From Citreicella sp. C3M06 (GTDB lineage Bacteria > Pseudomonadota > Alphaproteobacteria > Rhodobacterales > Rhodobacteraceae): a stretch of 64,000 bases of DNA. Shown here one piece after another: positions 6,222 to 22,362 of this stretch (positions are counted from its first letter, which is position 1; each line of letters starts with the position of its first letter). The notes beneath the pieces are model-generated. The model ran no database searches and had not been told where the DNA came from. It was given only the letters and a program-made list of their open reading frames with translations. Location: NCBI RefSeq assembly GCF_018860705.1, contig NZ_JAHKQA010000039.1, positions 1 to 64,000 of the forward strand. Reading direction: 5' to 3'. A program made the position numbers and the translations under genes.

Positions 6222-6229
6222 GCTTCGTT

Positions 6230-8509
6230 TCAGCCGTAGCTTGCCACGTCGGCGCTTGCCAGAGTGGCGATGTTGATCAGCCCGCGCTGGGTGACCTCGG
6301 GGGTGACGATATGGGCGCGGTTGCCCATCCCCATCAGGATCGGCCCGACCTCCAGCCCTTCGGCCACGCCCTTGAGCAGATCGCGCGCCGCACCTGCCGC
6401 ATCGGTGTTGCCATAGATCAGCACATTGGCGCGCCCGCTTAGCCGGTTGCCCGGCAAGAGCCGTTCGCGAAGTTCCGGGTTCAGCGCCAACTCGGTGTGC
6501 ATTTCGCCCTCATATTCGAAATCCACGTTTTTGCGATCAAGGATCGCCAATGCCTCGCGCATGGCCACGCCTGTGCGGCAGTCGGTGTTGCCGAACTGGG
6601 ATCGCGAACACAGGGCAATGCGCGGCTCGATCCCGAAGCGGCGCACATGCCGGGCCGCCGCCTCGACCGTCCGCGCCAGTGTTGTGCCATCGGGTTCAAG
6701 CGTCACATGGGTGTCGGCCACGAACAGCGGCCCCTCGTCGAGGATCATCAGCGACAGCGCCCCGGCGGCGCACAGATCACCGGTTTCCAGCACCTGCCGG
6801 ATGTAGTTCAGATGCCACGAATACTGCCCGAAGGTGCCGCAGATCATACTGTCGGCATCGTTGCGGCGCACCATCAGCGCGGCAATCGCCGTGGTATTGG
6901 TGCGCAGGATGGCGCGGGCCAGATCCGGGGTCACGCCCTGCCGTTTCATCAGCTCGTGGTAGTCGCGCCAATAGTCGGTATAGCGCTCGTCGCTTTCGGG
7001 GTTCACGATCTCGAAGTCGCGGCCCGCCACCATCGGCAGCTCCATCTGCTCGAGCCTTTGCGCGATGACCTCGGGGCGCCCGATAAGGATCGGCGTGTGG
7101 ATGCCGTCCTCGGCCAGCCCCTGTACCGCGCGCAGCACGCGGCGATCCTCGCCCTCGGCAAAGACGATGCGTCTGCATGAGCGCCGCGCCGCCTCGGTCA
7201 CGCCGCGCATGGTGAGTGAGGAGCGGAAGACCTGCGCTTCGAGCGCCTGTCTGTAGCTGTCGAGGTCAAGCGTCCGGCGCGCCACGCCGCTTTCCATGGC
7301 GGCGCGGGCGACGGCCACGGCGATGGTCGGCAAAAGCCGCGGATCGAACGGCTTGGGGATCAGGTAATCCGGGCCGAAGGTCAGTTTCTCGTTCTCGTAA
7401 ACCTCGCCGACCTCGGCGGTGGTGGTCTGGCGGGCCAGATCGGCGATGGCATCGACGCAGGCCAGCTTCATGGCGTCGTTGATCTCGCGCGCCTCGACAT
7501 CCAGCGCCCCGCGAAAGATGAAGGGAAAGCACAGCACGTTATTGACCTGATTGGGAATATCCGACCGGCCTGTGGCGATCATCGCGCCGGGGGCGGCGGC
7601 GCGGGCGAGGTCTGGCATGATCTCGGGGGTCGGGTTGGCAAGCGCAAGGATCACCGGGGCAGGGGCCATACCCGCCACCATCTCGGGGGTCAGCACGCCG
7701 GGGCCGGAGACGCCCAGCACCATATCCGCGCCTTTCAGCGCGTCGCCCAGGCCGATGCCTTGTTCGGCATGGGCGAACTGGCGCTGTTCGGGGGCCAGAT
7801 CGTTGCGTCCCGCGTGCAGCACACCGCCCTTGTCGAAGACGGTGATGTTGCGCTCGGGGATGCCGAGCTTGGCGAGCATGGCAAGGCAGGCCGTGCCAGC
7901 GGCGCCCGCGCCGATGCCCACCACCCGCACCGTGGCGGGATCCTTGCACGCAAGGTGCAACGCGTTGCGCGCGGCGGCGGCGACCACGATGGCGGTGCCG
8001 TGCTGATCGTCATGGAACACCGGGATGCCCATGCGCTCGCGGCAGATCCGCTCGACGGTGAAACAATCGGGGGCCTTGATGTCTTCGAGGTTGATGGCGC
8101 CGAAAGTGGGTTCAAGCTTGCACACCCAGTCGGCAAGCGCCTCGGGGTCGGTCTCGTTCACCTCGAGGTCGAAGCAGTCGATGTTGGCGAATTTCTTGAA
8201 GAGCACGGCCTTGCCCTCCATCACCGGCTTTGACGCCAGCGCGCCGATATTGCCCAGCCCCAGCACGGCGGAGCCGTTCGACACCACCGCCACGAGGTTG
8301 CGCCTTGCGGTGTAGCGGGTGACAAGGGCGGGATCGCGGGCGATCTCCATGCAGGCATCGGCGACGCCGGGGGAATAGGCCCGCGACAGATCCCGCGCCG
8401 TGGCCATGGGCTTGGTTGCGCGGATCTCAAGCTTACCGGGGGTCGGGTAGGCGTGGTAGTCAAGCGCGGCCTGCTGTTCGGGCGGCGGCGGTGTCTTGTC
8501 GAGGGCCAT
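6230..8509 (-). CDS. maeB: NADP-dependent malic enzyme with C-terminal phosphotransacetylase-like domain
   Basis: A 759-residue MaeB-type enzyme: malate + NADP to pyruvate + CO2 + NADPH. The malic domain covers about residues 1-430, with [12 protein letters not shown] near residue 45, the acidic metal-binding stretch [12 protein letters not shown] near residue 160, and a dinucleotide-binding [12 protein letters not shown] near residue 197. A phosphotransacetylase-like domain fills the rest ([12 protein letters not shown] near residue 450); in the family it is usually regulatory. AAGGAGA precedes the ATG. It is the last gene of the long bhc operon, where it would turn the C4 acid made by the cycle into pyruvate and NADPH. 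Confidence 0.95.
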
Positions 8510-8533
8510 CGAGGTCTCCTTCAGGGTGCCATG

Positions 8534-9520
8534 TCAGATCGGATGGGCGAGGCGCTGCGTCATGTCGAGCATCCGCGCCGAGAACCCGGCTTCGTTGTCG
8601 TACCAGCCGAAGATCCGCAGCTGGCCATCGCCGACCACCTGCGTTTCAGTCCGGGCGAGGATCAGGCTTTCGGTCCGCCCACGGAAATCGACGGAGACGC
8701 AAGGGTCATGGCTGGCGCCGATGATCGTGCCGTCGGTTATGCTGTCGAGCAGCGCCTCCACCTTTCCCGGCGGGGCGGCGCATTGGATCACCGCGTCAAT
8801 CGCCGAGACCGAAATCGTCGGGATGCGCGCGGCGGCGATGCTGAGCCGGCCCTGAAGCGCGGGAAGCACCTTCAACACCTGCGCGGCGGCGCTGGTCGAA
8901 GTGGGCACGATGGATTCATGCGAGGCGCGGCTGCGTTCCAAAGTCTCGCCGGGGCGGTCGGTGGTGGGCTGGCTGGCGGTGGCGCAGTGGATCGTGGTGA
9001 CATGGGCGCGTTCGATGCCGCAGCGCGCGTGCACGGCGCGCAGCAGGGGGGCGATGGCATTGGTGGTGCAGGATGCGTTGGACAGGATGCGCGCATCCTG
9101 CGGCACCGCGCCCGAAGCCCCGATCACATAGGTCAGGTCCGCCGCCTGCGAGGGCCCCGAAATCAGCACCCGTGCGGCCCCGGCGTCAAGCCCGGCCATG
9201 GCCACCTCGCGGCTGCCCGCGCGCCCGGTGCATTCCAGCACCACATCGACGCCGGACAGGTCGAGCTGCCGCAGGTCTTGCACCGCATGAAAAGGCACCT
9301 GCCGTCCCGCGACGATCAGCGCGCCCGGCGCCACCTCCACCAGGGCGGGGAAGGGGCCGAAGACGCTGTCATAGCGCAGCAGGTAGGCACAGGTGTCCAG
9401 CGGCGCCACGTCATTGATGCCAGTGATCTCGATGGCAGGGCTGCCTGCGATGATCTGCCGAAAGACGGTGCGGCCGATGCGGCCGAAGCCATTGATGAAA
9501 ATGCGGACGGGTCGGGTCAT
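8534..9520 (-). CDS. Glyceraldehyde-3-phosphate dehydrogenase-like enzyme
   Basis: A 328-residue GAPDH-fold dehydrogenase. NAD site: NGFGRIGR at residues 10-17 and GINDV near 34. Catalytic cysteine: SNASCTTN near residue 145. The catalytic histidine is kept, but the usual HAYT is HCAT, PTSTG is PTSTS, and the C-terminal WYDNEWGYS is WYDNEAGFS. The phosphate-contact arginine (AARIPT) is present. It sits between bhcD and maeB with short gaps, so it is co-transcribed with the glyoxylate pathway. A gluconeogenic GAPDH is the simplest reading. Erythrose-4-phosphate dehydrogenase or another aldehyde substrate is possible, given the departures from the housekeeping sequence. Confidence 0.85.
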   Translation of the reverse strand: MTRPVRIFINGFGRIGRTVFRQIIAGSPAIEITGINDVAPLDTCAYLLRYDSVFGPFPALVEVAPGALIVAGRQVPFHAVQDLRQLDLSGVDVVLECTGRAGSREVAMAGLDAGAARVLISGPSQAADLTYVIGASGAVPQDARILSNASCTTNAIAPLLRAVHARCGIERAHVTTIHCATASQPTTDRPGETLERSRASHESIVPTSTSAAAQVLKVLPALQGRLSIAAARIPTISVSAIDAVIQCAAPPGKVEALLDSITDGTIIGASHDPCVSVDFRGRTESLILARTETQVVGDGQLRIFGWYDNEAGFSARMLDMTQRLAHPI

Positions 9521-9542
9521 CGGGGGGCCTCATGCGGTGGGG

Positions 9543-10508
9543 TCAGACATCCACCTTGATGGCGATGCCTTTTTCGATCGCAAGGTCGACCACCGCGGCG
9601 GCGACGGCAAGGTCCTGCAGACCGACGCCGGTGCCATCGAAAAGCGTGATCTCGTCCGCAGACTTGCGCCCGGGATGGGTGCCGTTGATCACCGCACCGA
9701 TCTGGTGGATGTCCGCCTCGGTCATCAGGTTTTGCGCAATGGCATGCTGAGCCTCGCCGATACTGACCGATTGCGCGATTTCGTCGGTGAACACCGTGGC
9801 CACCGCCAGAAGCGCGGCGTCGACTTCCTGTTTGCCCTTGGTGTCGGTGCCCATGCAGGCAAGATGCGTTCCGGGGCTGACATGGGCGGCCATCAGGCTG
9901 GGCGCGAAGGCCGAAGTGATGGACACGATGACATCCGCCTCGCGCATCCCGTCCAGCGGCACCGCTTCGAAGGGCAGGCCAGCCTCATTCGCCACCTTTT
10001 CGATGTTGGGCAGCATCTCGGGGTGGTAGTTCCAGCCGATAACCTTTGTGAAATCGCGCTGCTCCAGCGCGGCGCGCAGCTGGAAGGTCGCCTGATGGCC
10101 CGCGCCGACCATGCCCATCACTTTGGCATCCTTGCGAGCCAGATGGGCGATCGACACCGAGGACGCGGCAGCGGTGCGCAGCGCGGTGAGCAGGTTGCCC
10201 CCGACCATGGCGGCAACCTTGCCGGTGTCCGGATCGAACAGGAAAACCGTGGACTGGTGATTGATCTCGCCGTGTTTCGCAAGATTGTTCGGCCAGTAGC
10301 CCCCCGCCTTCAACCCAAGGCTAAGGCCCGCGCGATCAAAGCCGCCCTTGAACCCGTATAGCGCATCCTCGTGCCCGATGGCTTCGCGGATCACCGGGAA
10401 ATTATAGGCCTCGCCCGAGGCCATGGCGGCAAAGACCTTTTCCACGGCGTCGAAGGCCGAGGTGCGCGTCATCAGCGCGCCGATCTCGCGTTCGGGAACG
10501 ATGTACAT
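9543..10508 (-). CDS. bhcD: Iminosuccinate reductase (beta-hydroxyaspartate cycle, BhcD)
   Basis: A 321-residue protein of the ornithine cyclodeaminase/mu-crystallin family. In the beta-hydroxyaspartate cycle this family member reduces iminosuccinate to L-aspartate with NADH. The nucleotide-binding loop GMVGAGHQATFQL lies near residues 125-137; RTAAASSVSIAHLAR just before it is typical of the family. The start at 10508 follows AGGAGAG; a longer frame to 10700 overlaps bhcC and is rejected. The assignment to BhcD rather than a generic cyclodeaminase rests on the gene order bhcA-bhcB-bhcC-bhcD. Confidence 0.92.
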   Translation of the reverse strand: MYIVPEREIGALMTRTSAFDAVEKVFAAMASGEAYNFPVIREAIGHEDALYGFKGGFDRAGLSLGLKAGGYWPNNLAKHGEINHQSTVFLFDPDTGKVAAMVGGNLLTALRTAAASSVSIAHLARKDAKVMGMVGAGHQATFQLRAALEQRDFTKVIGWNYHPEMLPNIEKVANEAGLPFEAVPLDGMREADVIVSITSAFAPSLMAAHVSPGTHLACMGTDTKGKQEVDAALLAVATVFTDEIAQSVSIGEAQHAIAQNLMTEADIHQIGAVINGTHPGRKSADEITLFDGTGVGLQDLAVAAAVVDLAIEKGIAIKVDV

Positions 10509-10534
10509 GGTCTCTCTCCTGTTGTGCTGTCGTT

Positions 10535-10575
10535 CGCGCCTGTGCGACAGGCAAAGGGTCACCCGCACAGGCGCG
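10535..10575 (-). promoter_or_regulatory. Long hairpin in the bhcC-bhcD gap
   Basis: CGCGCCTGTGCG (10535-10546) pairs perfectly with CGCACAGGCGCG (10564-10575): a 12-bp stem with a 17-base loop in the 109-bp gap between bhcC and bhcD. It is not followed by a U-run in the direction of transcription. An RNA processing or stability element is more likely than a terminator. Confidence 0.5.
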
Positions 10576-10579
10576 TCTC

Positions 10580-10601
10580 GCAGGCCCTGTTCCGGGCCTG
10601 C
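10580..10601 (-). promoter_or_regulatory. Second hairpin in the bhcC-bhcD gap
   Basis: GCAGGCCC / GGGCCTGC, an 8-bp perfect stem with a six-base loop, lies 16 bases after the bhcC stop. With the 12-bp hairpin just downstream it forms a tandem structure that may protect the 3' end of the upstream transcript or attenuate bhcD. Confidence 0.45.
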
Positions 10602-10617
10602 CCCTTTTCCGTCGTTC

Positions 10618-11781
10618 TCAGTAGGCCTTGCCGCGCGCCGACACCGGCCAGACGCATTCGACCTTGCCGCTGCGCACGCCCACGTACCAGTCGTGCACAT
10701 TGGCGGTGGGATCGCAGTGGCCGGGCACCAGTCGCAGCTTGTCCCCCACCTTCAGCACGCCCTGCGGGTCCGCGATCACTCCATGTTCGTCCGAACATTT
10801 GATGTATTCGACATCGTCGCGCCCGAAGATCACCGGAAGACCGCTGTCCACCGACTGCGCCTTGAGGCCCGCATCGACGATGGCCTTGTCCGCCTTGGCA
10901 TGGCTCATGACCTGCGTCAGGATGAAGAAGGCGTTGAGCCATTCGCCCTGATCGATGCGCTTGCCGTCCTTATCCAAGATGCGGCCATAATCCGCGTCCA
11001 TAAAGGCGTATGACCCACACTGAAGCTCGTTGTAGACGCCGGAATTGCTTTCGAAATAATACGACCCGGTGCCGCCGCCCGAGACTAGCGCGCAGTCGAT
11101 GCCATCGGCCTTGAGGCCCGCCACAGCGTCCTCGACCATGGCGATGGCGGCGTCGAGCTTGTCTTTGCGCGCATCGTAGCTGTCGATGTGCTGCATCGCG
11201 CCCTGATAGGCCTGAATGCCCGCGAAGGTCAGGTTCGGCGCTCGTTCCACCGCCTTGGCAATTTCGACTACGGCGGGGGTGCTGGTCACGCCGCAGCGCC
11301 CGGCACCGCAGTCAATCTCGATGAAGATGTCGAGTCCGGTGCCGTGCCTGACCGCCGCCGCCGACAGCTCGGCCACGTTCTCCACGTCATCGACGCAGAC
11401 GATGATCCGCGCGCCAAGCTGCGGCAGCCGTGCCAGCCGGTCGATCTTGGCCGGGTCACGCACCTGGTTGGACACCAGCACATCCTTGATGCCACCGCGG
11501 GCAAAGACCTCGGCCTCGGACACTTTCTGGCAGCACACGCCGACCGCACCGCCAAGACGTTCCTGAAGCTTGGCCACATCCACCGATTTGTGCATCTTGC
11601 CGTGCACCCGGTGCCGCATGCCATGCGCGCGGGCGTAATCGCCCATCACCTTGATGTTGCGTTCCAGCGCGTCAAGGTCGAGCACAAGGCAGGGCGTCTG
11701 GATGTCTGCCTCGTCCATGCCGGGCTTGGCCGGGATGTCGAAGCCCACGTCGAACTGTTCGAGATCGGAAAGGTCTTTCAT
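10618..11781 (-). CDS. bhcC: 3-hydroxy-D-aspartate aldolase (BhcC)
   Basis: A 387-residue PLP enzyme of the D-threonine aldolase / alanine-racemase-fold family. In the cycle it condenses glycine and glyoxylate to (2R,3S)-beta-hydroxyaspartate. The PLP lysine is expected in HRVHGKMHKSVDVA near residue 60. The C-terminal LVPGHCDPTANVHDWY holds the histidine-cysteine-aspartate cluster that binds the divalent metal in this family. GGAGGAA precedes the ATG. Lying between bhcB and bhcD supports the BhcC call over a generic D-threonine aldolase. Confidence 0.94.
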   Translation of the reverse strand: MKDLSDLEQFDVGFDIPAKPGMDEADIQTPCLVLDLDALERNIKVMGDYARAHGMRHRVHGKMHKSVDVAKLQERLGGAVGVCCQKVSEAEVFARGGIKDVLVSNQVRDPAKIDRLARLPQLGARIIVCVDDVENVAELSAAAVRHGTGLDIFIEIDCGAGRCGVTSTPAVVEIAKAVERAPNLTFAGIQAYQGAMQHIDSYDARKDKLDAAIAMVEDAVAGLKADGIDCALVSGGGTGSYYFESNSGVYNELQCGSYAFMDADYGRILDKDGKRIDQGEWLNAFFILTQVMSHAKADKAIVDAGLKAQSVDSGLPVIFGRDDVEYIKCSDEHGVIADPQGVLKVGDKLRLVPGHCDPTANVHDWYVGVRSGKVECVWPVSARGKAY

Positions 11782-11836
11782 CTGTGTTCCTCCCTTGTGG
11801 GGTTGAGTGGCTCGGGGGTGTATTGGGGCGGCTGGC

Positions 11837-12802
11837 TCAGGCGAGCCAAGGCAGCCGGTCTAGGTCGACATTGCCGCCGGTAATGACGAGGCCGACGCGC
11901 TTTTGGCGAAAAGCCTCCGGGTTCTTGAGAACGATCGCGAGGGGCACGGCGCTCGACGGTTCCATGACCACGCGCAGGTGCTTCCACACCAGCTTCATCG
12001 CGTCGATGATTTCCGGGTCCGAGGCGGTGTAGATCTCGGAGACGTGGTTCGACACGAAATGCCAAGTGAGGTCCTTGAGCGGCACCAGCAGCCCGTCGGC
12101 GATGGTCTTGGGGGCGTCATCGGCGATGATGTGCCCGGCCTTGAAGCTGCGGTAGGCATCATCCGCCTGTTCCGGCTCGGCGGCGATCACTTGCGTTTCG
12201 GGGGCCAGTGTTGCCAGCGTCAGGCAGGTGCCCGAGATCATGCCACCGCCGCCGATGGGGGCAACCACCATATCAAGCCCATCGGTCTGTTCGATGAACT
12301 CCTTGGAGCAGGTGCCTTGCCCGGCGATCACGCGCGGGTCGTTGTAGGGGTGGACGAAATCGCTGCCGGTCTCGGCTTGGATGAGGGCGAAGGTTTCCTC
12401 GCGCGACGAGGTCGACGGCTCGCATTCGGTGATGCGCCCGCCGTAGCGTCGCACGGTGTCCTTTTTGGCCTGCGGCGCGGTGCGCGGCATGACCACGTTG
12501 CACGGGATGCCGCGCAGCATGGCGGCGTAGCTGAGGCAGGAGGCGTGGTTGCCCGAGCTGTGCGTTGCAACGCCCCGCGCCGCCTGCGCATCGCCCAAGG
12601 CGAACACCGCGTTGGCCGCGCCGCGCACTTTGAAGGCGCCGGGTTCCTGAAAGTTCTCGCATTTGAAGAAGAGCTGCGCGCCGGTCAGCTCGTCGAGGTA
12701 ATCCGAAGTCCGCACCGGGGTGCGGCGGATGTGGGGACGAATACGCTCATGCGCTGCGAGCATGTCGTCATAGCTGGGAATGATCATCGTTGGGGCGTTC
12801 AT
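11837..12802 (-). CDS. bhcB: beta-hydroxyaspartate dehydratase (BhcB)
   Basis: A 321-residue PLP-dependent dehydratase of the serine/threonine dehydratase fold. In the cycle it removes water from beta-hydroxyaspartate to give iminosuccinate. The PLP lysine is in ENFQEPGAFKVRGAANA near residue 60; SSGNHASCLSYAA near residue 90 and the phosphate-binding GGGGMISG near residue 185 are family motifs. The start at 12802 overlaps the bhcA stop by one base (TGATG), showing coupling; the long in-frame extension to 13444 runs antisense-like through bhcA and is rejected. Confidence 0.94.
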   Translation of the reverse strand: MNAPTMIIPSYDDMLAAHERIRPHIRRTPVRTSDYLDELTGAQLFFKCENFQEPGAFKVRGAANAVFALGDAQAARGVATHSSGNHASCLSYAAMLRGIPCNVVMPRTAPQAKKDTVRRYGGRITECEPSTSSREETFALIQAETGSDFVHPYNDPRVIAGQGTCSKEFIEQTDGLDMVVAPIGGGGMISGTCLTLATLAPETQVIAAEPEQADDAYRSFKAGHIIADDAPKTIADGLLVPLKDLTWHFVSNHVSEIYTASDPEIIDAMKLVWKHLRVVMEPSSAVPLAIVLKNPEAFRQKRVGLVITGGNVDLDRLPWLA

Positions 12803-13995
12803 CAGGCGACCTCTCTGGCGATGGTTGCAGGGTGCTTGCGGTAGAAATCCTGCGCCGCGGCGACGCCGGAGCCGAGCGTGATGTTCAGGCCGAAGTCGGC
12901 CATGCACATCTCCATGGTGGCGATCCCGGACAGCATCATCACCTCGGTCAGGCTGCCAAGATGGCCGATACGGAACACCTTGCCCGCCAGCTCTCCAAGG
13001 CCGACGCCAAAGGCAACGCCGTAGGTCTGCGCCGCATGGCGAACGAGTTCCGTGGCGTCGAAGCCTTCGGGCGTGCGGATCGTGCTGACCGTGTCGGACA
13101 TGAGGTCCGGGCTTGCGGCACAAAGCGGCAGCCCCCAGGCCCCGGTCGCCGCGCGCACGCCGCTGGCGATGCGGGCATGGCGGGCAAAAACGTTGTCCAG
13201 CCCTTCGTCCAGTAGCATCCGGCAGGACAGGTTCAGCCCGTTGATCAGACCGACGCAGGGCGTGTAGGGATACGCGTCCTGCCCATAAGCGCGCTGCATA
13301 TCGCGAAAATCGAAGAAGGTGCGGGGCAGGGTCTCGCCGCCCTTGGTCGCCGACATCGCCTTGGGGCTGACCCCGAGAATGGCAAGCCCGGCAGGCAGCA
13401 TAAACCCCTTTTGCGACCCGGTGACTGCGATATCCACGCCCCATTCATCAAAGCGGAAATCCATCGAGCCGATGGATGACACCCCGTCCACGAACAGCAT
13501 CGCCGGGTGGCCGGCGGCGTTCATCGCCCGGCGCACCGCGTGAATGTCCGAGCGCACGCCGGTGGCCGTCTCGTTGTGGGTCGCCAGCACGGCGCGGATG
13601 CGGTGCTGGGTGTCTGCCGTCAGGATTTCCTCAAACCGATAGGCGGGAATGCCTTGGCCCCAAGGTGTTTCTACAACCTCGACGTTGAGGCCATGGCGGC
13701 GGCACATGTCGATCCAGCGGTGGCTGAACATGCCGTTGCGCGCCGCCAGAACCGTGTCACCCGCTTTGAGCGTGTTGCTCAGCGCCGCCTCCCAGCCACC
13801 GGTGCCGGTGGATGGAAAGATGAACACCTCGGCCCGCTGGCTTTTCAGCACCCGGCGCACGCCGCTGCGGGCAGGGCGCAGGATCTCGCCGAACAGCGGC
13901 GAGCGGTGGTCGATGGTGGGCATGTCGCAGGCCTTGCGAAGCCCCTCGGGGAGGTTCGTCGGACCGGGGATGAAACTTGGGTTCTGAAGGCTCAT
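12802..13995 (-). CDS. bhcA: L-aspartate-glyoxylate aminotransferase (BhcA)
   Basis: A 397-residue class V aminotransferase. In the cycle it transfers the amino group of aspartate to glyoxylate, giving glycine and oxaloacetate. It starts MSLQNPSFIPGPTNLP, close to the BhcA N-terminus as I recall it. The PLP lysine is in VTGSQKGFMLPAGLA near residue 200, and FVDGVSSIGSMDFRFDEW just before it holds the PLP-binding aspartate. The frame extends upstream to 14148, but that part is antisense-like to the dehydrogenase gene; the ATG at 13995 gives the family length. It is the first of the four contiguous bhc genes. Confidence 0.94.
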   Translation of the reverse strand: MSLQNPSFIPGPTNLPEGLRKACDMPTIDHRSPLFGEILRPARSGVRRVLKSQRAEVFIFPSTGTGGWEAALSNTLKAGDTVLAARNGMFSHRWIDMCRRHGLNVEVVETPWGQGIPAYRFEEILTADTQHRIRAVLATHNETATGVRSDIHAVRRAMNAAGHPAMLFVDGVSSIGSMDFRFDEWGVDIAVTGSQKGFMLPAGLAILGVSPKAMSATKGGETLPRTFFDFRDMQRAYGQDAYPYTPCVGLINGLNLSCRMLLDEGLDNVFARHARIASGVRAATGAWGLPLCAASPDLMSDTVSTIRTPEGFDATELVRHAAQTYGVAFGVGLGELAGKVFRIGHLGSLTEVMMLSGIATMEMCMADFGLNITLGSGVAAAQDFYRKHPATIAREVA

Positions 13996-14029
13996 AGCAC
14001 TGGCTTTCTGTTGCAAGTTGGGGCGCAGG

Positions 14030-16966
14030 TCATTGCAGGTACCGGTCAAGCACGAGGGCCACATGGATCGCCTCACGCGCGGCACCGTCGTGGATCTGAT
14101 GGCGACAGCTGGTCCCGTCGGCCACGATAAGCGCGTCGGGGGCCGCATCGCGCACCGCCGGAAGAAGCGCGGCCTCGCCCATCTTCATTGACACATCGTA
14201 GTTCTTGGCGGCGTAGCCGAACGCACCGGACATGCCGCAGCACGAGCTTTCGATCATCTGCACATCAAGGCCCGGCACCCCGCGCAGCACGGTTTCCACC
14301 GCGCCCATGGCGCCAAACGCCTTTTGGTGGCAGTGGCCGTGCACGTGGACGGTCTGCCCGCCCGCATCCCCGACCGGCAGCGTCAGGGTACCCGCCGCGA
14401 TGTCTTCGGCCAGCAGTTCCTCGAAGATCAGCGCCTTGCCCGCCATGAAGCCGGTTTCCTCGGCAGGCAGCAGGGCGGTCATTTCGTCGCGAAAGGTAAA
14501 CATGCACGACGGTTCAAGGCCCACGACCCGCGCGCCCGCGTCAACGAAAGGCCGGAGCGCCCCAAGGGTGCGGCGCAGTTCGGCGCGCGCCTCGTCGGTC
14601 TGGCCAGACGCCAGATAAGTGCGCCCGCAACACATCGGACGGCGGCTGCTGCCCACGGTGACGCGGTGGATACGGTAGCCCGCCTTCACCAGCACGCGCT
14701 CGGCAGCCTCGAGGTTTTCGGATTCGAAGTAGCGGTTAAACGTATCGCCGAACAGCACGATGTCGCGCCCGTCGCCCTTGACGTCCTGCGGCACGGCCGG
14801 GGCGCGGTCCTCGACCCAGGGCTTGCGCCATTGGGGCAGCGTGCGTCTGGCCGAGAACCCCAGCCATTGCTCGGACAGTTTCGCCAGGAACGGCAGCTTG
14901 TCGCGCAGGTTCACCAGCGGCGCAAGGCGCGCGGCAAACGGTGCATAGCGCGGCATATACGCGATGAGCCGTTCGCGCAGCGGCAACCCGTGGCGCTTGT
15001 GATAGTGGTGCAGCACCTCGATCTTCATCCGCGCCATGTCGACCCCGGTGGGGCAGTCGCGCTTGCACCCCTTGCAGGATACGCACAGATCCATGGTTTC
15101 CTTCATCTCGGGCGAGGTGAAGGCGTCTTCGCCAAGCTGCCCCGAGATCGCGAGGCGCAGCGTGTTGGCGCGCCCCCGCGTCAGGTGCTGTTCATCGCGC
15201 GTGGCGCGGTAGGACGGGCACATGGTGCCGCCCGACAGCTTGCGACAGGTGCCGTTGTTGTTGCACATCTCGACCGCGCCGCCAAAGCCGCCCCAGTCGG
15301 ACCAATCCAGCGCGGGTTCTGCGGGCAGCTTGGTCTTGTAGCCCGGCTTGAAGCGCATCAAATCGCGGTCATCCATGCGCAGCGGGCGCACGATCTTGCC
15401 GGGGTTGAGGCGATTTTCCGGATCGAAACTGTCCTTCACCTGTTCGAAGGCGCGGGTGAGTTCGGCCCCGAACATCGGCTCGACATATTCCGACCGGGAA
15501 ATCCCGTCGCCATGCTCGCCCGAGAACGAGCCTTTGTATTTGCGCACAAGCTCAGCGGCCTCTTCGGCGATGGCGCGCATGGTTTTGGCGCCTTCCTCGG
15601 TCTTCATGTTGAGAATGGGCCGCACGTGCAGACAGCCGACCGAGGCATGGGCGTACCATGTCCCGCGCGTGCCGTGGCGTTCGAACAGATCGGTGATGCC
15701 GTCGGTGTAATCGGCGAGATGCTCAAGCGGGACGGCGCAATCCTCGATGAACGACACCGGCTTGCCCTCGGATTTCATCGACATCATGATGTTAAGACAC
15801 GCCTCGCGCACGCCCCAGACCGCCTTTTGGCGATGCGGCTCGACCACCTCGACCACAGCATCCGCATGGCCGTGATCGGCCATGCACTGGTCCAGCCTTT
15901 TGAGATCTCCCTTTAGCGCATCAAGGTCATCGCCCGCAAATTCGCAGAGCAGCAGGCAGTTGGGCGTGCCCTTGGTGATGTCGCTGATGGTACGCACAAA
16001 CGCGGGGATGTCGGCGCCCATGACCAGCACGTTGTTGTCGACCAGTTCCACCGCGACAGGGCCAAGGGCAACAAGGTGTTGCGTGGTCTCCATGGCGCTG
16101 CGGAAATCGGGGAAGTGGCACACGCCCATCACCCGATGCTTGGGCAGGGTCGACAGTTTCAGGGTGACTGCCGTGCTGAGCGCAAGCGTGCCTTCGGAGC
16201 CGACCAGCAGCCGCGACAGGTTCGGCTGGGCGGGCAGCAGCTCGTCAAGGTTATAGCCGCCAACACGGCGCTGCACCTTGGGGAAGATCTCGTCGATGCG
16301 CTCGCGGTGGGTGTCGGCCAGAGCGGTCAGGTTGCTCATGATCTCGCGCATCCGGGGAGAGGCATTTTCCGACCAATGCGCGGCATCAAGGCGGAAGCTG
16401 TCGCCGTCATGCATCAGCCCTTCCATGGCAAGAACGTTGTCCACCGTCTTGCCAAAGCGCAGCGATCGTGCGCCCGACGAGTTGTTGCCGCACATCCCCC
16501 CGATGGTGCAGCGCGAGGCGGTCGAAGGTTCCACCGGAAAGAACAGCCCATCCTGACGCGCCCGCTCGTTCAGCGTGTTAAGCACCATGCCGGGGCGCAC
16601 GGTCACCGTGCGCGCGGCGGCGTCGTAATCCAGCATGTCGTTGAAATGGCGTGACATGTCGAGGATCAGCCCGCGCCCGATGGGCTGGCCGTTCTGCGAG
16701 GTGCCGCCGCCGCGGGCGATGACCGGCACGCCATGTTCCGAGGCGATCTGAAGCGCGGCGGCAATGTCGTCGGCGGATTTGGGATAGGCCACGCCGGTCG
16801 GCATGATCTGGTAGATCGAAGCATCGGTGGCATAGCGACCACGGGTGAAGGCGCCAAAATCGGTGCCGCCTTCCATGGCTTTGGACAGCGCGCTCTCGAA
16901 GGCCTGCGATCGGGCCACGGCACGGGCGGCGGGGGTGGTGCTGCGCTGAGGCATGGGAGCATTCAT
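14030..16966 (-). CDS. Fused FAD/Fe-S 2-hydroxyacid dehydrogenase (GlcD-GlcF / YdiJ-like)
   Basis: A 978-residue membrane-associated-type dehydrogenase combining a flavoprotein and an iron-sulfur protein in one chain. Residues about 40-190 are the FAD-binding type 4 domain (IARGGGTSQNGQPIGRG); about 230-490 the FAD oxidase C domain. CVSCKGCKRDCP near residues 628-639 binds a [4Fe-4S] cluster, and an upstream Cys set (CNNNGTCRK, TMCP) may hold a second. Two CCG domains carry MCCGRTY near 779 and SSCCGMSG near 909. A strong AAGGAGG ribosome site selects the start. Relatives oxidise glycolate, D-lactate or D-2-hydroxyglutarate to the 2-oxo acid. Placed directly before bhcA, oxidation of glycolate to glyoxylate is the attractive inference. 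Confidence 0.92.
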   Translation of the reverse strand: MNAPMPQRSTTPAARAVARSQAFESALSKAMEGGTDFGAFTRGRYATDASIYQIMPTGVAYPKSADDIAAALQIASEHGVPVIARGGGTSQNGQPIGRGLILDMSRHFNDMLDYDAAARTVTVRPGMVLNTLNERARQDGLFFPVEPSTASRCTIGGMCGNNSSGARSLRFGKTVDNVLAMEGLMHDGDSFRLDAAHWSENASPRMREIMSNLTALADTHRERIDEIFPKVQRRVGGYNLDELLPAQPNLSRLLVGSEGTLALSTAVTLKLSTLPKHRVMGVCHFPDFRSAMETTQHLVALGPVAVELVDNNVLVMGADIPAFVRTISDITKGTPNCLLLCEFAGDDLDALKGDLKRLDQCMADHGHADAVVEVVEPHRQKAVWGVREACLNIMMSMKSEGKPVSFIEDCAVPLEHLADYTDGITDLFERHGTRGTWYAHASVGCLHVRPILNMKTEEGAKTMRAIAEEAAELVRKYKGSFSGEHGDGISRSEYVEPMFGAELTRAFEQVKDSFDPENRLNPGKIVRPLRMDDRDLMRFKPGYKTKLPAEPALDWSDWGGFGGAVEMCNNNGTCRKLSGGTMCPSYRATRDEQHLTRGRANTLRLAISGQLGEDAFTSPEMKETMDLCVSCKGCKRDCPTGVDMARMKIEVLHHYHKRHGLPLRERLIAYMPRYAPFAARLAPLVNLRDKLPFLAKLSEQWLGFSARRTLPQWRKPWVEDRAPAVPQDVKGDGRDIVLFGDTFNRYFESENLEAAERVLVKAGYRIHRVTVGSSRRPMCCGRTYLASGQTDEARAELRRTLGALRPFVDAGARVVGLEPSCMFTFRDEMTALLPAEETGFMAGKALIFEELLAEDIAAGTLTLPVGDAGGQTVHVHGHCHQKAFGAMGAVETVLRGVPGLDVQMIESSCCGMSGAFGYAAKNYDVSMKMGEAALLPAVRDAAPDALIVADGTSCRHQIHDGAAREAIHVALVLDRYLQ

Positions 16967-17004
16967 CTTGTGGCCTCCTTGGATTTTGGCATGAGGGGGG
17001 CGGC

Positions 17005-17026
17005 TCCGGGCCAAAGGCGGCCCGGA
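17005..17026 (-). promoter_or_regulatory. Hairpin between tctA and the FAD/Fe-S dehydrogenase gene
   Basis: TCCGGGCC / GGCCCGGA, an 8-bp perfect stem with a six-base loop, in the 92-bp gap downstream of tctA. No U-run follows. Probably an RNA stability or processing element separating the transporter part of the message from the enzyme part. Confidence 0.4.
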
Positions 17027-17058
17027 TGGTATTGATTTTGTAACGTGAAACCCGTGGG

Positions 17059-18576
17059 TTAGCTGGTTTCAGGCTGCGCGTCGGGGGTGCCGTCTGATGG
17101 CGGCTTGCGGCGGATCTGCCCCCAGATGCCGTAGGCCAGCGACACAGCCGACAAGATCAGCAGCGTGCCGGTGATGGGGCGGCTGACCAAGGTCATGATG
17201 TCGTGGTCGGCAAGGATCAGGCCCTGGCGCAGGCTCACCTCGGCGATGGGGCCAAGCACCAGCCCGATGATGAAGCTTGCCACCGGCAGACCGTAGCTTT
17301 TCAGGAAGAAGCCCACGCCCCCGAAGACCAGCATCACCGCCACATCCGACACGTTGTTGTTCAGCGCGAAGACCCCGGTCATGCAGAGCACCACGATAGC
17401 CGGACCGACCAGCTGGTAGGGTGCGCGCAGCACCACGGCAAACAGCCGCGCCGCCCGCAGGCCGAAGACCAGCATCAGGATATTGGCCAGCAGCATGCCG
17501 ATGAACACCGAATAGACGAGGTCCGAATTGTTCTGCATCAGCATCGGTCCCGGCACGATGCCGTGGATGGTCAGACCGCCGATCATCACCGCGGTGGTGG
17601 CAGAGCCGGGGATGCCCAGGGCCAGCAGCGGGATCATCGAGCCGCCTACCGCCGAGTTGTTGCCGGACTCCGGCGCGGCGATGCCCTCGGGCGAGCCCTT
17701 GCCGAACAGCTCTGGCTTCTTGGACCACCGAAACGCTTCGGAGTAGCTGATGAAGGCGGCGGTGGTGGCGCCAACGCCGGGCAGGGCGCCGATGATGGTG
17801 CCGATGACCGAAGAACGCAACAGCGTGGCCTTGGTGGCCATGAACTCGGCAAAGCTCGGAAGCTGGGTCGAAACCTGAGTCATCTGTTCGCCCTTGGGCG
17901 GGCCGTCGGCAAATCGTTGCAGCACCTCGGCAAGGGCGAAAATACCGATGATGGCGGCGATGAAGCTGACCCCGGTCAGCAGCATCATGTTGCCGAAGGT
18001 GAACCGCGCGGTCCCGGTCAGCGGATCGAGCCCGATCAGCGCCACCGCAAGGCCCAGAAGCCCGGCGATCAGCCCCTTGACCAGCGAGCCGCCGCCGATC
18101 GAGGCGATTGCCGTGATGCCCAGCACCGCAAGGGCGAAATACTCTGCCGGGCCAAATTCCAGCGCAAGGCGCGCCAGCGGCGGGGCCGCGAACATCAGCA
18201 CCAGCGTGCCAAAGATGCCGCCCACGGCCGAGGCCGCCAGCGCGATCCCCAACGCCTTGCCCGCTTCGCCGCGCTTGGCCATGGGGTAGCCGTCGAGCGA
18301 GGTGCAGGCCGCCTCGGGAGAGCCGGGGGTGTTGAACAGGATCGCGGCGATGGAGCCGCCAAAGGTGGACCCAACGTAGACACCGCCAAGCAACAGCATG
18401 CCTTCCGTCGGATCAAAGGCAAAGGTGAAGGGGATGAGCAGCGCCACGCCCACGATGCCGGTCAGGCCGGGGACGGCGCCAAAAACGATGCCCCAGATCA
18501 CGCTGAACAGGATCAGCAGAAAGCTCATGGGATTGCCGACCATATACCCGGCGGCGGAAACGAATGCGTCTAGCAT
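17059..18576 (-). CDS. tctA: Tripartite tricarboxylate transporter large permease (TctA)
   Basis: A 505-residue protein with about 12 membrane segments, the main transport subunit of a TctABC system. Characteristic stretches are FGAVPGLTGIVGVALLIPFTF near residue 35, SIAAILFNTPGSPEAACTSLDGYP near residue 80, and GALPGVGATTAAFISYSEA near residue 265. Length is normal. It follows tctB after 24 bases. The substrate of this copy is unknown; the downstream enzymes point to a hydroxy acid. Confidence 0.94.
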   Translation of the reverse strand: MLDAFVSAAGYMVGNPMSFLLILFSVIWGIVFGAVPGLTGIVGVALLIPFTFAFDPTEGMLLLGGVYVGSTFGGSIAAILFNTPGSPEAACTSLDGYPMAKRGEAGKALGIALAASAVGGIFGTLVLMFAAPPLARLALEFGPAEYFALAVLGITAIASIGGGSLVKGLIAGLLGLAVALIGLDPLTGTARFTFGNMMLLTGVSFIAAIIGIFALAEVLQRFADGPPKGEQMTQVSTQLPSFAEFMATKATLLRSSVIGTIIGALPGVGATTAAFISYSEAFRWSKKPELFGKGSPEGIAAPESGNNSAVGGSMIPLLALGIPGSATTAVMIGGLTIHGIVPGPMLMQNNSDLVYSVFIGMLLANILMLVFGLRAARLFAVVLRAPYQLVGPAIVVLCMTGVFALNNNVSDVAVMLVFGGVGFFLKSYGLPVASFIIGLVLGPIAEVSLRQGLILADHDIMTLVSRPITGTLLILSAVSLAYGIWGQIRRKPPSDGTPDAQPETS

Positions 18577-18600
18577 GGGATTCTCCGGTGCTGGGGCGGC

Positions 18601-19119
18601 TTAGTAAAGCGCCTGGCTGAGATCGTAAAAGATGCCTGTGCCCCGGGGCAGCGACAGCGACAGCCCATAGCTGAAGAAGGCCGCCAGAAGCAGGGTGAAG
18701 GCGGGGGCGAAGAGCAGCTTCGCCAGCGTGTTACGGTAAGGAAGGATAAAGGATCCGGCCCAGAGGAAGACCAGCGTTGCCAGCAGAAAGCCGACGTATT
18801 GCAGCGCAAAGAAGTAGCCGATGATCAGCGCGCCGGTCACGATCAGCCGCGTGTAATAGCCTTGCGGCACGTAGGCCTCGAGTTCTTCATCAAGCGTGCG
18901 CGGCCCGCCGGAGGGCGCGGCGATCAGCCCCGCCACCTTTTGCGCCAGATGGATGGCACAGCAGATCCCGAGCGCCCCGAACACCATCTTCGGCCACATG
19001 TCGCTGTCGACCTGAGCGTAGCGTTTCGACACGGGTAGCGCATCGGAAGTGAACCAGAGCGCGACGGACGCGATGGTCATGGCCGCGAAGACGACCACTT
19101 CGGACAGTTTGTAGAGCAT
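18601..19119 (-). CDS. tctB: Tripartite tricarboxylate transporter small permease (TctB)
   Basis: A 172-residue protein with about four membrane segments (roughly residues 8-26, 42-60, 92-125 and 132-158), matching the small subunit of TctABC systems in size, topology and position between tctC and tctA. Sequence conservation in this family is weak, so the call leans on context. The start at 19119 opens directly into the first hydrophobic segment. Confidence 0.85.
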   Translation of the reverse strand: MLYKLSEVVVFAAMTIASVALWFTSDALPVSKRYAQVDSDMWPKMVFGALGICCAIHLAQKVAGLIAAPSGGPRTLDEELEAYVPQGYYTRLIVTGALIIGYFFALQYVGFLLATLVFLWAGSFILPYRNTLAKLLFAPAFTLLLAAFFSYGLSLSLPRGTGIFYDLSQALY

Positions 19120-19175
19120 GTCGCCAGCCCCTCCCCAGGCTGGGGCGGACCCATGGGCCCGCCACGCCGATAAGA

Positions 19176-20132
19176 TCAGTAGCCGAGCTGGTTCATGATG
19201 GTGCTGTAGGTCTCCACTTCCTTGTCGAGGAAGGTTTTGAACGCGTCCGGCCCCATGAACTCGGACCGGTACTGAAGCGCGCTGTCGGCCTCGACCTTCT
19301 TGTAGCCCTCATCGGCGGCGGCGTCCTTGAACAGCGACACCAGTGTGTCGATCTGCGCCGCGTCGGTGCTGGGGCGAATGCCGAAACCACGCCAGCGGCC
19401 CAGCGTCACATCATAGCCAAGCTCGGCGGCGGTGGGCACATTGGGCAGTTCTTCGAGCCGTTCGTCCGAGAACAGCACGATGGGGATGAGATCGCCGGAT
19501 TCGATCAGCCCGCGGGTCGGGCCGTATTCCTCGTACATCATGTCGAGGTGCCCCCCGAGCGTGTTCGACACCATCTCGGCGGCGCCAAAGGGCACGGTGC
19601 CCAGCTCGATCCCCGCCTCTTCGTTGAACAGGCCGATCAGCGCGTCGTCAAAGCCCGCCGAGCCGGTCACCCCGACCTTGAGGCCACCCGGCTCTTCGGC
19701 CTCAGCGGCGAGCACGTCGTCGAGGCTGCGAATGTCGCTGTCCTTGGAGACCAGCAGTAGGCCCTGATCGTACTGGATGCGGACCAGCGGCTGCACGTTC
19801 GACAAATCGATCCGGCCAAGCGCGTGGTTGATCACGTCATCGGGGCTGAGCGACACCAGAGTGTAGCCGTTGGCCGGACGCTGCATGAAGGTGACGAAGG
19901 CGGGAACGCCGCCGCCGCCGGTGATCGAGATCGGAACAAAGCTCTGGCCGGTGGCCTCCTGCATCGGCTCGGAGATGGCGCGGATAAAGCGGTCGGTGCC
20001 GCCGCCGGGGCCATACTGGTGGATGATCTCCACCGTGCGCTCGGGGTAGTCACTGGCAAGTGCGGGCGTGGCTGTTGTCGCGACGGCGGCGATCAGGGCG
20101 ATGCCGCGCATGGGCCGTCCTACGGGTGTCAT
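19176..20132 (-). CDS. tctC: Tripartite tricarboxylate transporter solute-binding protein (TctC/BugT family)
   Basis: A 318-residue periplasmic receptor. A signal peptide covers about residues 1-22 (ending ATPALA before SDYPERT). The mature start YPERTVEIIHQYGPGGGTD is typical of the Bug/TctC family, whose first loop wraps the carboxylate ligand. A GGGAGGAGAG ribosome site precedes the ATG at 20132; the start at 20147 has none. It is the first transporter gene of the operon, after the aminotransferase at 20250-21440. Confidence 0.92.
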   Translation of the reverse strand: MTPVGRPMRGIALIAAVATTATPALASDYPERTVEIIHQYGPGGGTDRFIRAISEPMQEATGQSFVPISITGGGGVPAFVTFMQRPANGYTLVSLSPDDVINHALGRIDLSNVQPLVRIQYDQGLLLVSKDSDIRSLDDVLAAEAEEPGGLKVGVTGSAGFDDALIGLFNEEAGIELGTVPFGAAEMVSNTLGGHLDMMYEEYGPTRGLIESGDLIPIVLFSDERLEELPNVPTAAELGYDVTLGRWRGFGIRPSTDAAQIDTLVSLFKDAAADEGYKKVEADSALQYRSEFMGPDAFKTFLDKEVETYSTIMNQLGY

Positions 20133-20191
20133 GGTCTCTCCTCCCATAATGATGTCGGTCGCCGCCCCTCCTCCGTGGCGCGGTCGGCCTC

Positions 20192-20213
20192 TACCCGGCG
20201 CCGACGCCGGGTA
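20192..20213 (-). promoter_or_regulatory. Hairpin between the aminotransferase gene and tctC
   Basis: TACCCGGCG-ccga-CGCCGGGTA, a perfect 9-bp stem with a four-base loop in the 117-bp gap before tctC. There is no U-run. Such structures before or after receptor genes often raise the level of the binding-protein message; that role is inferred here. Confidence 0.45.
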
Positions 20214-20249
20214 TGCGGTGCCCGGCTGGCGGGCACAAAAGGCTTTGGC

Positions 20250-21440
20250 TCACTCGGCTGCGAGTGGCTCGTAAGCGGTCTGTTCCAATTCCGCCATGGC
20301 TGCGGCGACGCCGCCCTGGTTGTGCGGAACCCCGGCCTTGCGCAGGCCAAGTTCCACCCCCGTCAGGGTGCCGGCCAAGGTCAGATCATTGATGTCACCG
20401 AGGTGGCCGATGCGAAAGACCCTATCGGCCACTTTGGACAGGCCATTGCCGAGCGAGATGTCGTAATGGCGCAAAGCGCTTGCGCGGAAGGCATCGGCGC
20501 TGTGCCCTTCGGGCATAAGCACCGCTGTCAGCACGCCCGATTCCTGCCCCTGCTGCGCACAAAGCACCTCGAGCCCCCAGTGGCGCACCGCCGTGCGGGT
20601 GGCAGCACCATGACGCTGATGACGGGCAAAGACGTTGTCCAGCCCTTCTTCGTGCAGCATCGCGATGGCCTCGTTGAGGCCGTAAAGCATGTTGGTTCCG
20701 GGGGTGTAGGGGAAGTAGCCGGTTGGATTGATCGCGGCCATTTCCTGCCAATCCCAGTAGGAGCGGCGCATGCCGTTGCTCTTGGAATACTCAAAGGCCT
20801 TCTGGCTCACCGCGTTGAACGACAGACCGGGGGGCAGCATCAGGCCCTTCTGCGAGCCGGAGACGGCAACGTCCACGCCCCATTCATCGAACCGGAAGTC
20901 GATCGAAGCCAGACCCGAGATCGTGTCGACCATCAGAAGCGCCGGATGGCCCGCCGCGTCGATGGCCTGCCGCACCTGCGCGATGGGCGAGACGGACCCG
21001 GTCGAAGTCTCGTTATGGACCACGCAGACCGCCTTGATCTCATGAGCGCTGTCCGCGCGCAAGCGCGCCTCGATGCGATCGGGATCGGCCCCGCCGCGCC
21101 AGTCGCCTTCGATGAACTCGGCGTTCACGCCGAGCTTGGCCGCCATCTTCTTCCACAGCGTCGCGAAATGGCCGGTTTCGTACATCAGAACCTTGTCGCC
21201 CTCAGCCAGGGTGTTGACCAGGGCCGCCTCCCAAGCGCCAGTGCCGGACGAGGGGTAGATGAAGACATGTTGATCCGTCTTGAAGATCGTCTTCATCCCC
21301 GAAAGCGCCGCCTTGCCAACATCGGCAAAATCCGGGCCGCGGTGGTCCATGGTCTGCGCCGAGATCGCGCGCAACACCCGGTCGGGCACCGGGCTTGGCC
21401 CGGGGATCTGAAGGAAATGGCGTCCTGCCCTGTGTGTCAT
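20250..21440 (-). CDS. Serine-glyoxylate-type aminotransferase (class V)
   Basis: A 396-residue class V aminotransferase, paralogous to BhcA. It starts MTHRAGRHFLQIPGPSPVPD, and the PLP lysine is in VSGSQKGLMLPPGLS near residue 205, after LMVDTISGLASIDFRFDEW. Relatives use serine or alanine as donor and glyoxylate as acceptor, giving glycine plus hydroxypyruvate or pyruvate. A GGGAGG ribosome site precedes the ATG at 21440. As first gene of the bhc operon it could supply the glycine used by BhcC. Serine, alanine and aspartate donors cannot be told apart by eye. Confidence 0.87.
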   Translation of the reverse strand: MTHRAGRHFLQIPGPSPVPDRVLRAISAQTMDHRGPDFADVGKAALSGMKTIFKTDQHVFIYPSSGTGAWEAALVNTLAEGDKVLMYETGHFATLWKKMAAKLGVNAEFIEGDWRGGADPDRIEARLRADSAHEIKAVCVVHNETSTGSVSPIAQVRQAIDAAGHPALLMVDTISGLASIDFRFDEWGVDVAVSGSQKGLMLPPGLSFNAVSQKAFEYSKSNGMRRSYWDWQEMAAINPTGYFPYTPGTNMLYGLNEAIAMLHEEGLDNVFARHQRHGAATRTAVRHWGLEVLCAQQGQESGVLTAVLMPEGHSADAFRASALRHYDISLGNGLSKVADRVFRIGHLGDINDLTLAGTLTGVELGLRKAGVPHNQGGVAAAMAELEQTAYEPLAAE

Positions 21441-21496
21441 GTTGTGTCCTCCCTGACGCCGCAGGCGGGCAAGACCCCTCTGCGGCAATATGAATT

Positions 21497-21512
21497 ATGA
21501 ATGCATTTTCAT
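21497..21512. promoter_or_regulatory. Candidate GntR operator in the bhc divergent region
   Basis: ATGAA-TGCATT-TTCAT is a palindrome with 5-bp arms, located 57 bases upstream of the first operon gene. A TTGACA element (read on the minus strand at 21526-21521) lies upstream of it and a CATAAT just downstream, though their 21-bp spacing is longer than ideal. A second palindrome, TGCATGCA, is at 21609-21616. The divergent GntR gene at 21676 is the likely binder. Confidence 0.45.
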
Positions 21513-21675
21513 CAGCGAGGTGTCAACTGATAAGATTCTTCCCCAATCCTGCGGAAAAATGCTAAGACTGCTTCCCACTTGTCCTGCAATGGTAATAATG
21601 AAAAATTATGCATGCACAAATAGGTCGCACAGACCAGCCGTTCGCGGAACCGGCGCTTCATAGGGGTACCCAGAG

Positions 21676-22362
21676 ATGACCACAGCTCTTTCGACACCGA
21701 CGCCCTTCCGCCGCAAATCCCTGCACGCGGAGCTGACCGACGCGATCCGCAACCAGATCGTAAATGGCGATCTCGCCCCCGGCATCCGGGTGCCGGAAAA
21801 GGATCTTTGCACCTTTTACGGCGTGTCCCGCACGCCGCTGCGCGAGGCGCTCAAAGTGCTGGCCACCGAAGGGCTGCTGTCACTGGAGCCGAACCGGGGC
21901 GCATGGGTCAGCCGCATCACGCCCGAGGATCTCGACGAGGTGTTCCCGGTCATGGGCGCACTCGAGGCGCTTTCCGGAGAACTGGCCTGCAAGCACATCA
22001 GCGACGCCGAAATCGGCCATATCCGGGTGCTGCACCGGCAGATGCTGAAACATTACGAGAAGCGCGAACTGGCGAAGTATTTCGAGGTGAACCAGCAGAT
22101 CCACGAGGCGATCCTGAACGCCGCCCGCAACGAGACGCTGGCCACGCAGTACCGTTCACTCGCCGCGCGGGTGCGGAGAGCGCGCTACGTTGCGAACATG
22201 ACGCAAGAACGCTGGGCGCAGGCGACGGACGAGCACGAGCAGATCATGGATTGCCTCGAGACCCGGGATGGCGAACGGCTGTCTTATGTGCTCAAGCTCC
22301 ATCTCGAGAACAAGCTCGAGACAGTGCGCCAATGGCTGCAAGACAATCACGACCCGGCCTGA
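21676..22362 (+). CDS. GntR-family (FadR/FCD) regulator of the extended bhc operon
   Basis: A 228-residue regulator read divergently from the long bhc operon. The winged helix spans about residues 12-78 with SRTPLREALKVL; an FCD domain follows (NQQIHEAILNAARNETLATQ near residues 138-157). It is clearly related to the GntR protein at 14-667, with aligned recognition helices and FCD motifs. Known bhc clusters are, as I recall, controlled by an IclR-type BhcR; a GntR-type protein in this place is a variation. Glyoxylate, glycolate or the TctC substrate are plausible ligands. Confidence 0.9.
   Translation: MTTALSTPTPFRRKSLHAELTDAIRNQIVNGDLAPGIRVPEKDLCTFYGVSRTPLREALKVLATEGLLSLEPNRGAWVSRITPEDLDEVFPVMGALEALSGELACKHISDAEIGHIRVLHRQMLKHYEKRELAKYFEVNQQIHEAILNAARNETLATQYRSLAARVRRARYVANMTQERWAQATDEHEQIMDCLETRDGERLSYVLKLHLENKLETVRQWLQDNHDPA

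Follow-up and report, generated by a model that had tools for sequence, protein, structure and literature searches.

In the beta-hydroxyaspartate cycle (BHAC), BhcA forms glycine from glyoxylate and aspartate, BhcC joins glycine to glyoxylate, BhcB dehydrates the product and BhcD reduces it to aspartate. In sum, two molecules of glyoxylate give oxaloacetate, as stated in two published accounts (PMC12214560, PMC11323563). According to the latter, Paracoccus denitrificans carries bhcABCD with the IclR-type regulator BhcR, which is needed for growth on glyoxylate, and a separate glcDEF locus with the GntR-type regulator GlcR (PMC11323563), in agreement with the BhcR-run bhc cluster named in a preliminary description of the locus considered here. 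That locus lies in a stretch of 64,000 nucleotides (the window; contig NZ_JAHKQA010000039.1) from Citreicella sp. C3M06, a member of the Rhodobacteraceae. In it, two gene modules that occur apart elsewhere stand head to tail, in one orientation and behind one GntR-type promoter region, and BhcR was not found in the 96% complete genome assembly. One module is a bhc cluster; the other comprises a class V aminotransferase (AT1), a TctABC importer and a fused flavin adenine dinucleotide (FAD)/iron-sulfur (Fe-S) dehydrogenase. On balance, we consider it probable that a genuine BHAC operon has merged with a distinct conserved module and come under the control of that module's GntR regulator.

The locus forms a minus-strand row of eleven genes running from position 21440 to 6230 in the order AT1-tctC-tctB-tctA-FAD/Fe-S-bhcA-bhcB-bhcC-bhcD-GAPDH-like-maeB (GAPDH, glyceraldehyde-3-phosphate dehydrogenase), with successive intergenic gaps of 102, 56, 24, 92, 31, -1, 55, 109, 22 and 24 bases, the negative value being the one-base overlap of bhcA and bhcB. 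Open reading frames (ORFs), NCBIfam and Pfam agree on the gene content, the orientation and the contiguity of bhcA to bhcD, all of which had been described correctly beforehand. Judging from orientation and gaps, a single transcript would span the eleven genes. Divergent from them lies the regulator gene (21676..22362, plus strand), whose product has the Pfam GntR and FCD domains. All four Bhc enzymes, encoded side by side on the minus strand, score above their NCBIfam cut-offs: BhcA, L-aspartate--glyoxylate aminotransferase (12802..13998; 720 bits, cut-off 650), BhcB, beta-hydroxyaspartate dehydratase (11837..12802; 574 bits, cut-off 550), BhcC, 3-hydroxy-D-aspartate aldolase (10618..11781; 751 bits, cut-off 690), and BhcD, iminosuccinate reductase (9543..10508; 583 bits, cut-off 500).

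The remaining products, also encoded on the minus strand, are assigned less narrowly. AT1 (20250..21440) is BhcA-like and stays under the cut-off of the BhcA family NF045640 (434.6 against 650 bits); it is 43% identical to BhcA of the window. The two motifs DHR and FRIGHLG, which BhcA proteins commonly have, are present in 79 of 79 AT1 sequences, and residue 88, which discriminates the aminotransferases, is Glu in AT1 and Arg in BhcA. The importer consists of the solute-binding protein TctC (19176..20147), the small membrane subunit TctB (18601..19119) and the large membrane subunit TctA (17059..18576), each recognized by its Pfam family. The fused FAD/Fe-S protein of about 980 residues (14030..16966; Pfam FAD_binding_4, FAD-oxidase_C and Fer4) is a 2-hydroxyacid dehydrogenase resembling YdiJ and GlcD that reaches the cut-off of neither the YdiJ D-2-hydroxyglutarate dehydrogenase family NF049975 (552.5 against 1350 bits) nor GlcD TIGR00387 (203.9 against 567.9 bits). 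By eye, it has HASVGCLH and GEHGDG where PDB-aligned lactate and glycolate enzymes have HxGDGNxH and GEHG, which gave no substrate prediction. The GAPDH-like protein (8534..9520) is a divergent dehydrogenase that retains the SCTTN cysteine motif and scores 287.4 bits, under the cut-off of 367 for type I GAPDH (TIGR01534), and MaeB (6230..8509) combines a malic enzyme with a phosphotransacetylase-like domain (Pfam malic, Malic_M and PTA_PTB).

To place the 3′ half of the row, we read 107 bhcC loci of the family sample (7 plus the 100 most similar to BhcC of the window). A divergent IclR-type BhcR gene adjoins bhcA in 95 of the 99 loci with bhcA and readable upstream DNA, the other four being L213, L240, L254 and L258. 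A GAPDH-like gene lies immediately 3′ of bhcD in 26 of the 100 readable loci, and maeB lies close to bhc in 4 of them, the two genes occurring together in 2; neither gene is peculiar to the operon of the window. Neither AT1 nor the FAD/Fe-S gene was found within 9 kb of bhc in any of the 107 loci. In these loci, GAPDH-like and maeB genes thus stand beside bhc, and the genes of the 5′ half do not. By its gene content, the 3′ half can be regarded as a normal bhc cluster, GAPDH-like and maeB being genes that also accompany bhc in other genomes.

Two further features of the relatives' bhc loci were observed. In 39 of the 107, bhc lies within 9 kb of genes for allantoin and ureidoglycolate, which, from the names of the probes used for this count, we take to be purine genes (L084, L085, L088 and L089, among others); purine-derived glyoxylate may feed the BHAC in those relatives. 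Two loci, L236 and L251, are second copies (in genomes G099 and G173) that hold bhcBCD without bhcA. By eye, both have an enolase-superfamily-like ORF downstream and L236 has an ORF resembling D-amino-acid dehydrogenase upstream, so bhcBCD there perhaps serve a use outside glyoxylate assimilation.

The 5′ half has a distribution of its own. Of 295 family genomes, 33 encode an AT1 orthologue, taken as a protein with at least 58% identity (beyond these, no match exceeds 49%), and because AT1 has this distribution and its own module, we could rule out that it is an ordinary duplicate of BhcA. Outside the window, 33 family AT1 loci were read, two of them from one genome; of these loci, 31 have the FAD/Fe-S gene and 26 a GntR homolog (at least 38% identity) no more than 6 kb from AT1. 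Genomes with AT1 encode bhcC more often than those without it (24/33 versus 132/262; Fisher p = 0.016, uncorrected for kinship), the other 9 of the 33 having no bhcC at the cut-off used, and in one family genome (G176) bhcC lies 14 kb from AT1. In a wider sample, the best 80 of at least 352 loci from alpha-, beta- and gammaproteobacteria, the FAD/Fe-S gene was detected in 72 loci by tblastn and in 67 as a whole ORF. Other neighbors in these 80 loci are enoyl-CoA hydratase (39; CoA, coenzyme A), the large subunit of a tripartite ATP-independent periplasmic (TRAP) transporter (33), CoA-transferase III (27), TctA (25) and GlcG/HbpS (21), and a bhc gene or remnant is present in 11, with none in the other 69, some of which are on short contigs. 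As far as gene neighborhoods tell, the GntR regulator, the FAD/Fe-S dehydrogenase, AT1 and an importer make up a module that is conserved in alpha-, beta- and gammaproteobacteria and usually stands away from bhc. A Bradyrhizobium locus (L159) carries two AT1-type genes in tandem, together with ORFs that by eye resemble methylthioadenosine-salvage genes.

The arrangement of the window recurs in several genomes, in various states of preservation. Roseovarius nubinhibens ISM has the order AT1-TctCBA-FAD/Fe-S-bhc with bhcABCD intact and neither GAPDH-like gene nor maeB in the next 4 kb. Salipiger thiooxidans has the merged order with bhcBCD, GAPDH-like gene, maeB and, as in the window, a convergent hydratase gene, its bhcA being reduced to a stretch that matches residues 292-398 at 51%. 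In Sulfitobacter DFL-14 (L093, 9986-21188), AT1, Tct, FAD/Fe-S, bhcC and maeB are retained and bhcA is gone; two deletions, one on either side of the intact bhcC, have taken away the part of bhcB ahead of residue 266 and the part of bhcD beyond residue 37. In Salipiger mangrovisoli a bhcB remnant alone survives of bhc. A further bhcA and bhcC lie elsewhere in the genomes of DFL-14, S. thiooxidans and S. mangrovisoli alike; no second bhcC was found in the genome of the window or in that of R. nubinhibens, although the latter encodes, at another place, a BhcA relative (51% identity). Of these five merged operons, the two in genomes without a second bhcC are thus the ones with an intact bhcA. Linkage also takes other forms: Paracoccus onubensis has AT1-bhcB-bhcC-bhcD-GlcG-GntR-GntR-FAD/Fe-S, with AT1 in the place of bhcA and other bhcA and bhcC genes elsewhere; in P. 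acridae and P. laeviglucosivorans AT1-bhcB is followed by the contig end; and differently built AT1/bhc loci are found in Filomicrobium, Aliihoeflea and two Tateyamaria. Gene order across these genomes indicates that the locus of the window is a merger of two conserved modules and not a simple expansion of the bhc cluster, as the preliminary description had read it; the comparison across the family that it had called for bore out its contrast with the BhcR norm and replaced the expansion by a merger.

Its other claim, that a GntR/FCD regulator stands in place of BhcR, agrees with the search of the organism's own genome, including for an IclR-type BhcR elsewhere. No IclR gene adjoins bhcA in the window, and a relative's BhcR searched against the whole assembly returned four distant matches of 18-26% identity, none near the operon. 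The genome encodes a single bhcC and a single close match to bhcD, after which identity falls to 31%, and a second bhc cluster elsewhere was thereby ruled out for this assembly. Another contig (C37) carries a glcD-like gene (445 bits, GlcD cut-off 568) followed by a second FAD-domain gene.

Regulation by the GntR protein was approached through the DNA upstream of AT1, where the 250 bases from 79 relatives and the intergenic region of the window share strongly repeated words. A 15-base motif was seeded by eye from the printed regions, including the window and its closest relatives, and trained on 75 upstream regions from which the window and its four closest relatives were excluded. It exceeds 8 bits in 62 of the 75, compared with a mean of 4.4 in base-shuffled copies, a figure that is optimistic inasmuch as these are the training regions; sites of at least 18 bits number three in 1.77 Mb of other loci. 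The best match in the window, TGCATTCATAATTCA (21491..21505, minus strand; 23.2 bits), lies just upstream of AT1, 15 bases past a TTGACA noted by eye (21526-21521), and covers the place where the -10 element of the AT1 promoter would be expected. On the GntR side lies a second, weaker operator-like site (21602..21616, minus strand; 12.6 bits), and the same two-site layout is seen in L093-L096. Together, these matches support control of the AT1 promoter by GntR, probably by repression through the predicted binding. The motif scan of the window revealed no operator-like site near bhcA, and a scan for sigma-70 consensus promoters gave nothing at bhcA, having missed the AT1 promoter as well. Weaker motif matches fall at 896 and 50082, the latter (50082-50096; 12.9 bits) within an ORF near dihydropyrimidinase-like and transporter-like ORFs and possibly due to chance.

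At its far end, the row is followed, just past maeB and between convergent gene runs, by a 12-pair hairpin (6193..6222) that is a likely terminator. The interval 6000-22400 holds ten terminator-like matches, no excess over the chance mean of 11.0, and the other nine have shorter stems of 5-8 pairs. The convergent run on the plus strand (1162..6169) encodes a TRAP transporter, a CoA-transferase III and an enoyl-CoA hydratase, according to protein families. In its wider extent (14-6169) it also includes a second GntR gene, and its TRAP, CoA-transferase III and hydratase kinds accompany AT1 in many relatives, as plasmid annotations show too.

What the merged operon does is most likely to import and oxidize a 2-hydroxy acid under the GntR switch and to deliver glyoxylate to the cycle. 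The regulator would repress the AT1 promoter until its ligand, either the imported acid or the oxidation product, appears; TctABC would take up the 2-hydroxy acid, and the FAD/Fe-S enzyme would convert it to the 2-oxo acid, the simplest case being glycolate to glyoxylate. AT1, as a second glyoxylate-using aminotransferase, would turn part of the glyoxylate into glycine with a donor in place of, or in addition to, aspartate, and BhcA to BhcD would make oxaloacetate from two glyoxylate. MaeB, following a malate dehydrogenase encoded elsewhere, could drain C4 compounds to pyruvate, and the GAPDH-like enzyme may aid gluconeogenesis; the complete module to pyruvate and gluconeogenesis announced earlier is a reading of gene names. 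Glyoxylate is suggested as the common thread by the neighbors of AT1 in diverse genomes: besides bhcBCD, these are a hydroxypyruvate isomerase in Methylobacterium (379 bits, cut-off 353), the urate hydroxylase PuuD in Aminobacter, a hydroxyisourate hydrolase 9 kb from AT1 in Defluviimonas, GlcG/HbpS in 21 of the 80 loci, and a BhcC homolog (42% identity) in one Caballeronia module that is not among the genes annotated at the same place in another Caballeronia. Since they point to glyoxylate, glycolate is the simplest guess for the imported substrate. Sulfolactate catabolism was also considered, R. nubinhibens being a sulfolactate degrader and TauE-type exporter genes lying near AT1 relatives (L078, L081 and L082, one of them Pfam-checked, and Rhizobium NXC24), and was dropped because no cysteate or sulfolactate lyase was seen in the merged operon.

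Several observations weigh against this account of the operon. The single transcript is argued from gene orientation and gaps, and deletions have cut the bhc genes in three of the five merged operons, so that the merger is not always kept. The FAD/Fe-S protein falls under every NCBIfam equivalog cut-off, and a GlcD-like ortholog is kept in 31 of the 33 AT1 genomes (267 of 295 overall), the organism's own included, so that the FAD/Fe-S enzyme need not be the glycolate dehydrogenase. The notion that it replaces GlcDEF is weakened accordingly, and an imported hydroxy acid other than glycolate is quite possible. Among the neighbors, the Methylobacterium isomerase also exceeds the cut-off for 2-oxo-tetronate isomerase, and the Caballeronia homolog is under the BhcC cut-off (370 of 690 bits). 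The FAD/Fe-S gene is not among the genes annotated in the Aminobacter and Defluviimonas loci, which are therefore evidence on AT1 alone; as AT1 relatives also adjoin amidases, racemases and a hydantoinase-like gene, substrates may differ between loci.

The same data bear on other explanations. The row could comprise two abutting transcription units, AT1-Tct-FAD/Fe-S under GntR and bhcABCD-GAPDH-maeB from a promoter of its own in or behind the FAD/Fe-S gene, governed from another locus, for instance by CceR or by an IclR protein encoded far away. We judge this unlikely. In its favor, the genome has 19 HTH_IclR matches and encodes four proteins distantly like BhcR, and Tateyamaria and Aliihoeflea keep the module next to a bhc cluster that has its own BhcR, as separate units. 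However, only 31 bases separate the FAD/Fe-S gene from bhcA, an order retained in R. nubinhibens, and bhcA has neither an adjoining IclR gene nor an operator-like site or promoter-like match (the scan being for sigma-70 only and blind to the AT1 promoter too). That the modules came together by a rearrangement, with no metabolite in common, is hard to credit: the absence of bhc from most of the 80 AT1 loci and of bhcC from 9 of the 33 AT1 genomes would fit such hitch-hiking, but at least five linked architectures exist (window type, Paracoccus, Filomicrobium, Tateyamaria and Aliihoeflea), the order is retained in two genera, and AT1 occupies the place of bhcA in P. onubensis.

A different substrate would change the point of entry. 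If the importer took up a C4 hydroxy-dicarboxylate such as a tartrate, the FAD/Fe-S enzyme could produce oxaloglycolate and AT1 beta-hydroxyaspartate, and carbon would enter halfway, at BhcB/BhcC. Tct importers commonly transport di- and tricarboxylates, and this cargo, the GlcD-like gene kept besides the module, the BhcC homolog of the Caballeronia module and the survival of bhcC with AT1, Tct, FAD/Fe-S and maeB in DFL-14, where bhcA and most of bhcB and bhcD are lost, all accord with the proposal. Nevertheless, we regard it as improbable: the second bhcA-bhcC pair of DFL-14 means that its retained bhcC may be chance, the neighbors of AT1 in other genomes indicate glyoxylate, and the module holds no known tartrate enzyme. 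More speculatively, and with little expectation of its being right, the GntR module could be a widespread undescribed route from an imported hydroxy acid to a BHAC intermediate other than glyoxylate, for example through a hydroxy-dicarboxylate that is oxidized and then converted directly to beta-hydroxyaspartate by AT1; the operon would then be a second, mid-cycle entry with its own regulator. The joining of a genuine BHAC operon to a GntR-controlled module remains the preferred explanation.

In the literature searched, we found no description of the GntR-FAD/Fe-S-AT1 module and no account of the merged operon, that search not covering the 2019 Nature paper about the cycle. The BHAC serves engineering as a route that saves carbon, and it is also a path for marine glycolate carbon. 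A natural operon in which it is coupled to a dedicated importer and oxidase and to a different switch would, if confirmed, show the cycle rewired to another signal, and it directs attention to a common GntR-controlled module that is uncharacterized as far as that literature shows. Compared with P. denitrificans, the window has the same four Bhc enzymes, and a GntR regulator takes part in the wider glycolate system of P. denitrificans too; unlike there, where two regulators serve two separate loci, bhc lies behind a GntR-type promoter together with a Tct importer, a fused FAD/Fe-S dehydrogenase and a second aminotransferase. The bhcABCD clusters of relatives with GAPDH-like gene or maeB equal the 3′ half of the operon, but the 5′ half is absent from their surroundings up to 9 kb, and in 95 of 99 cases BhcR stands at bhcA. 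The module of GntR, FAD/Fe-S, AT1, TRAP or Tct, enoyl-CoA hydratase, CoA-transferase and GlcG equals the 5′ half, down to the operator-like motif found in 62 of 75 relatives, whereas there FAD/Fe-S and AT1 often form divergent units and mostly occur without bhc.

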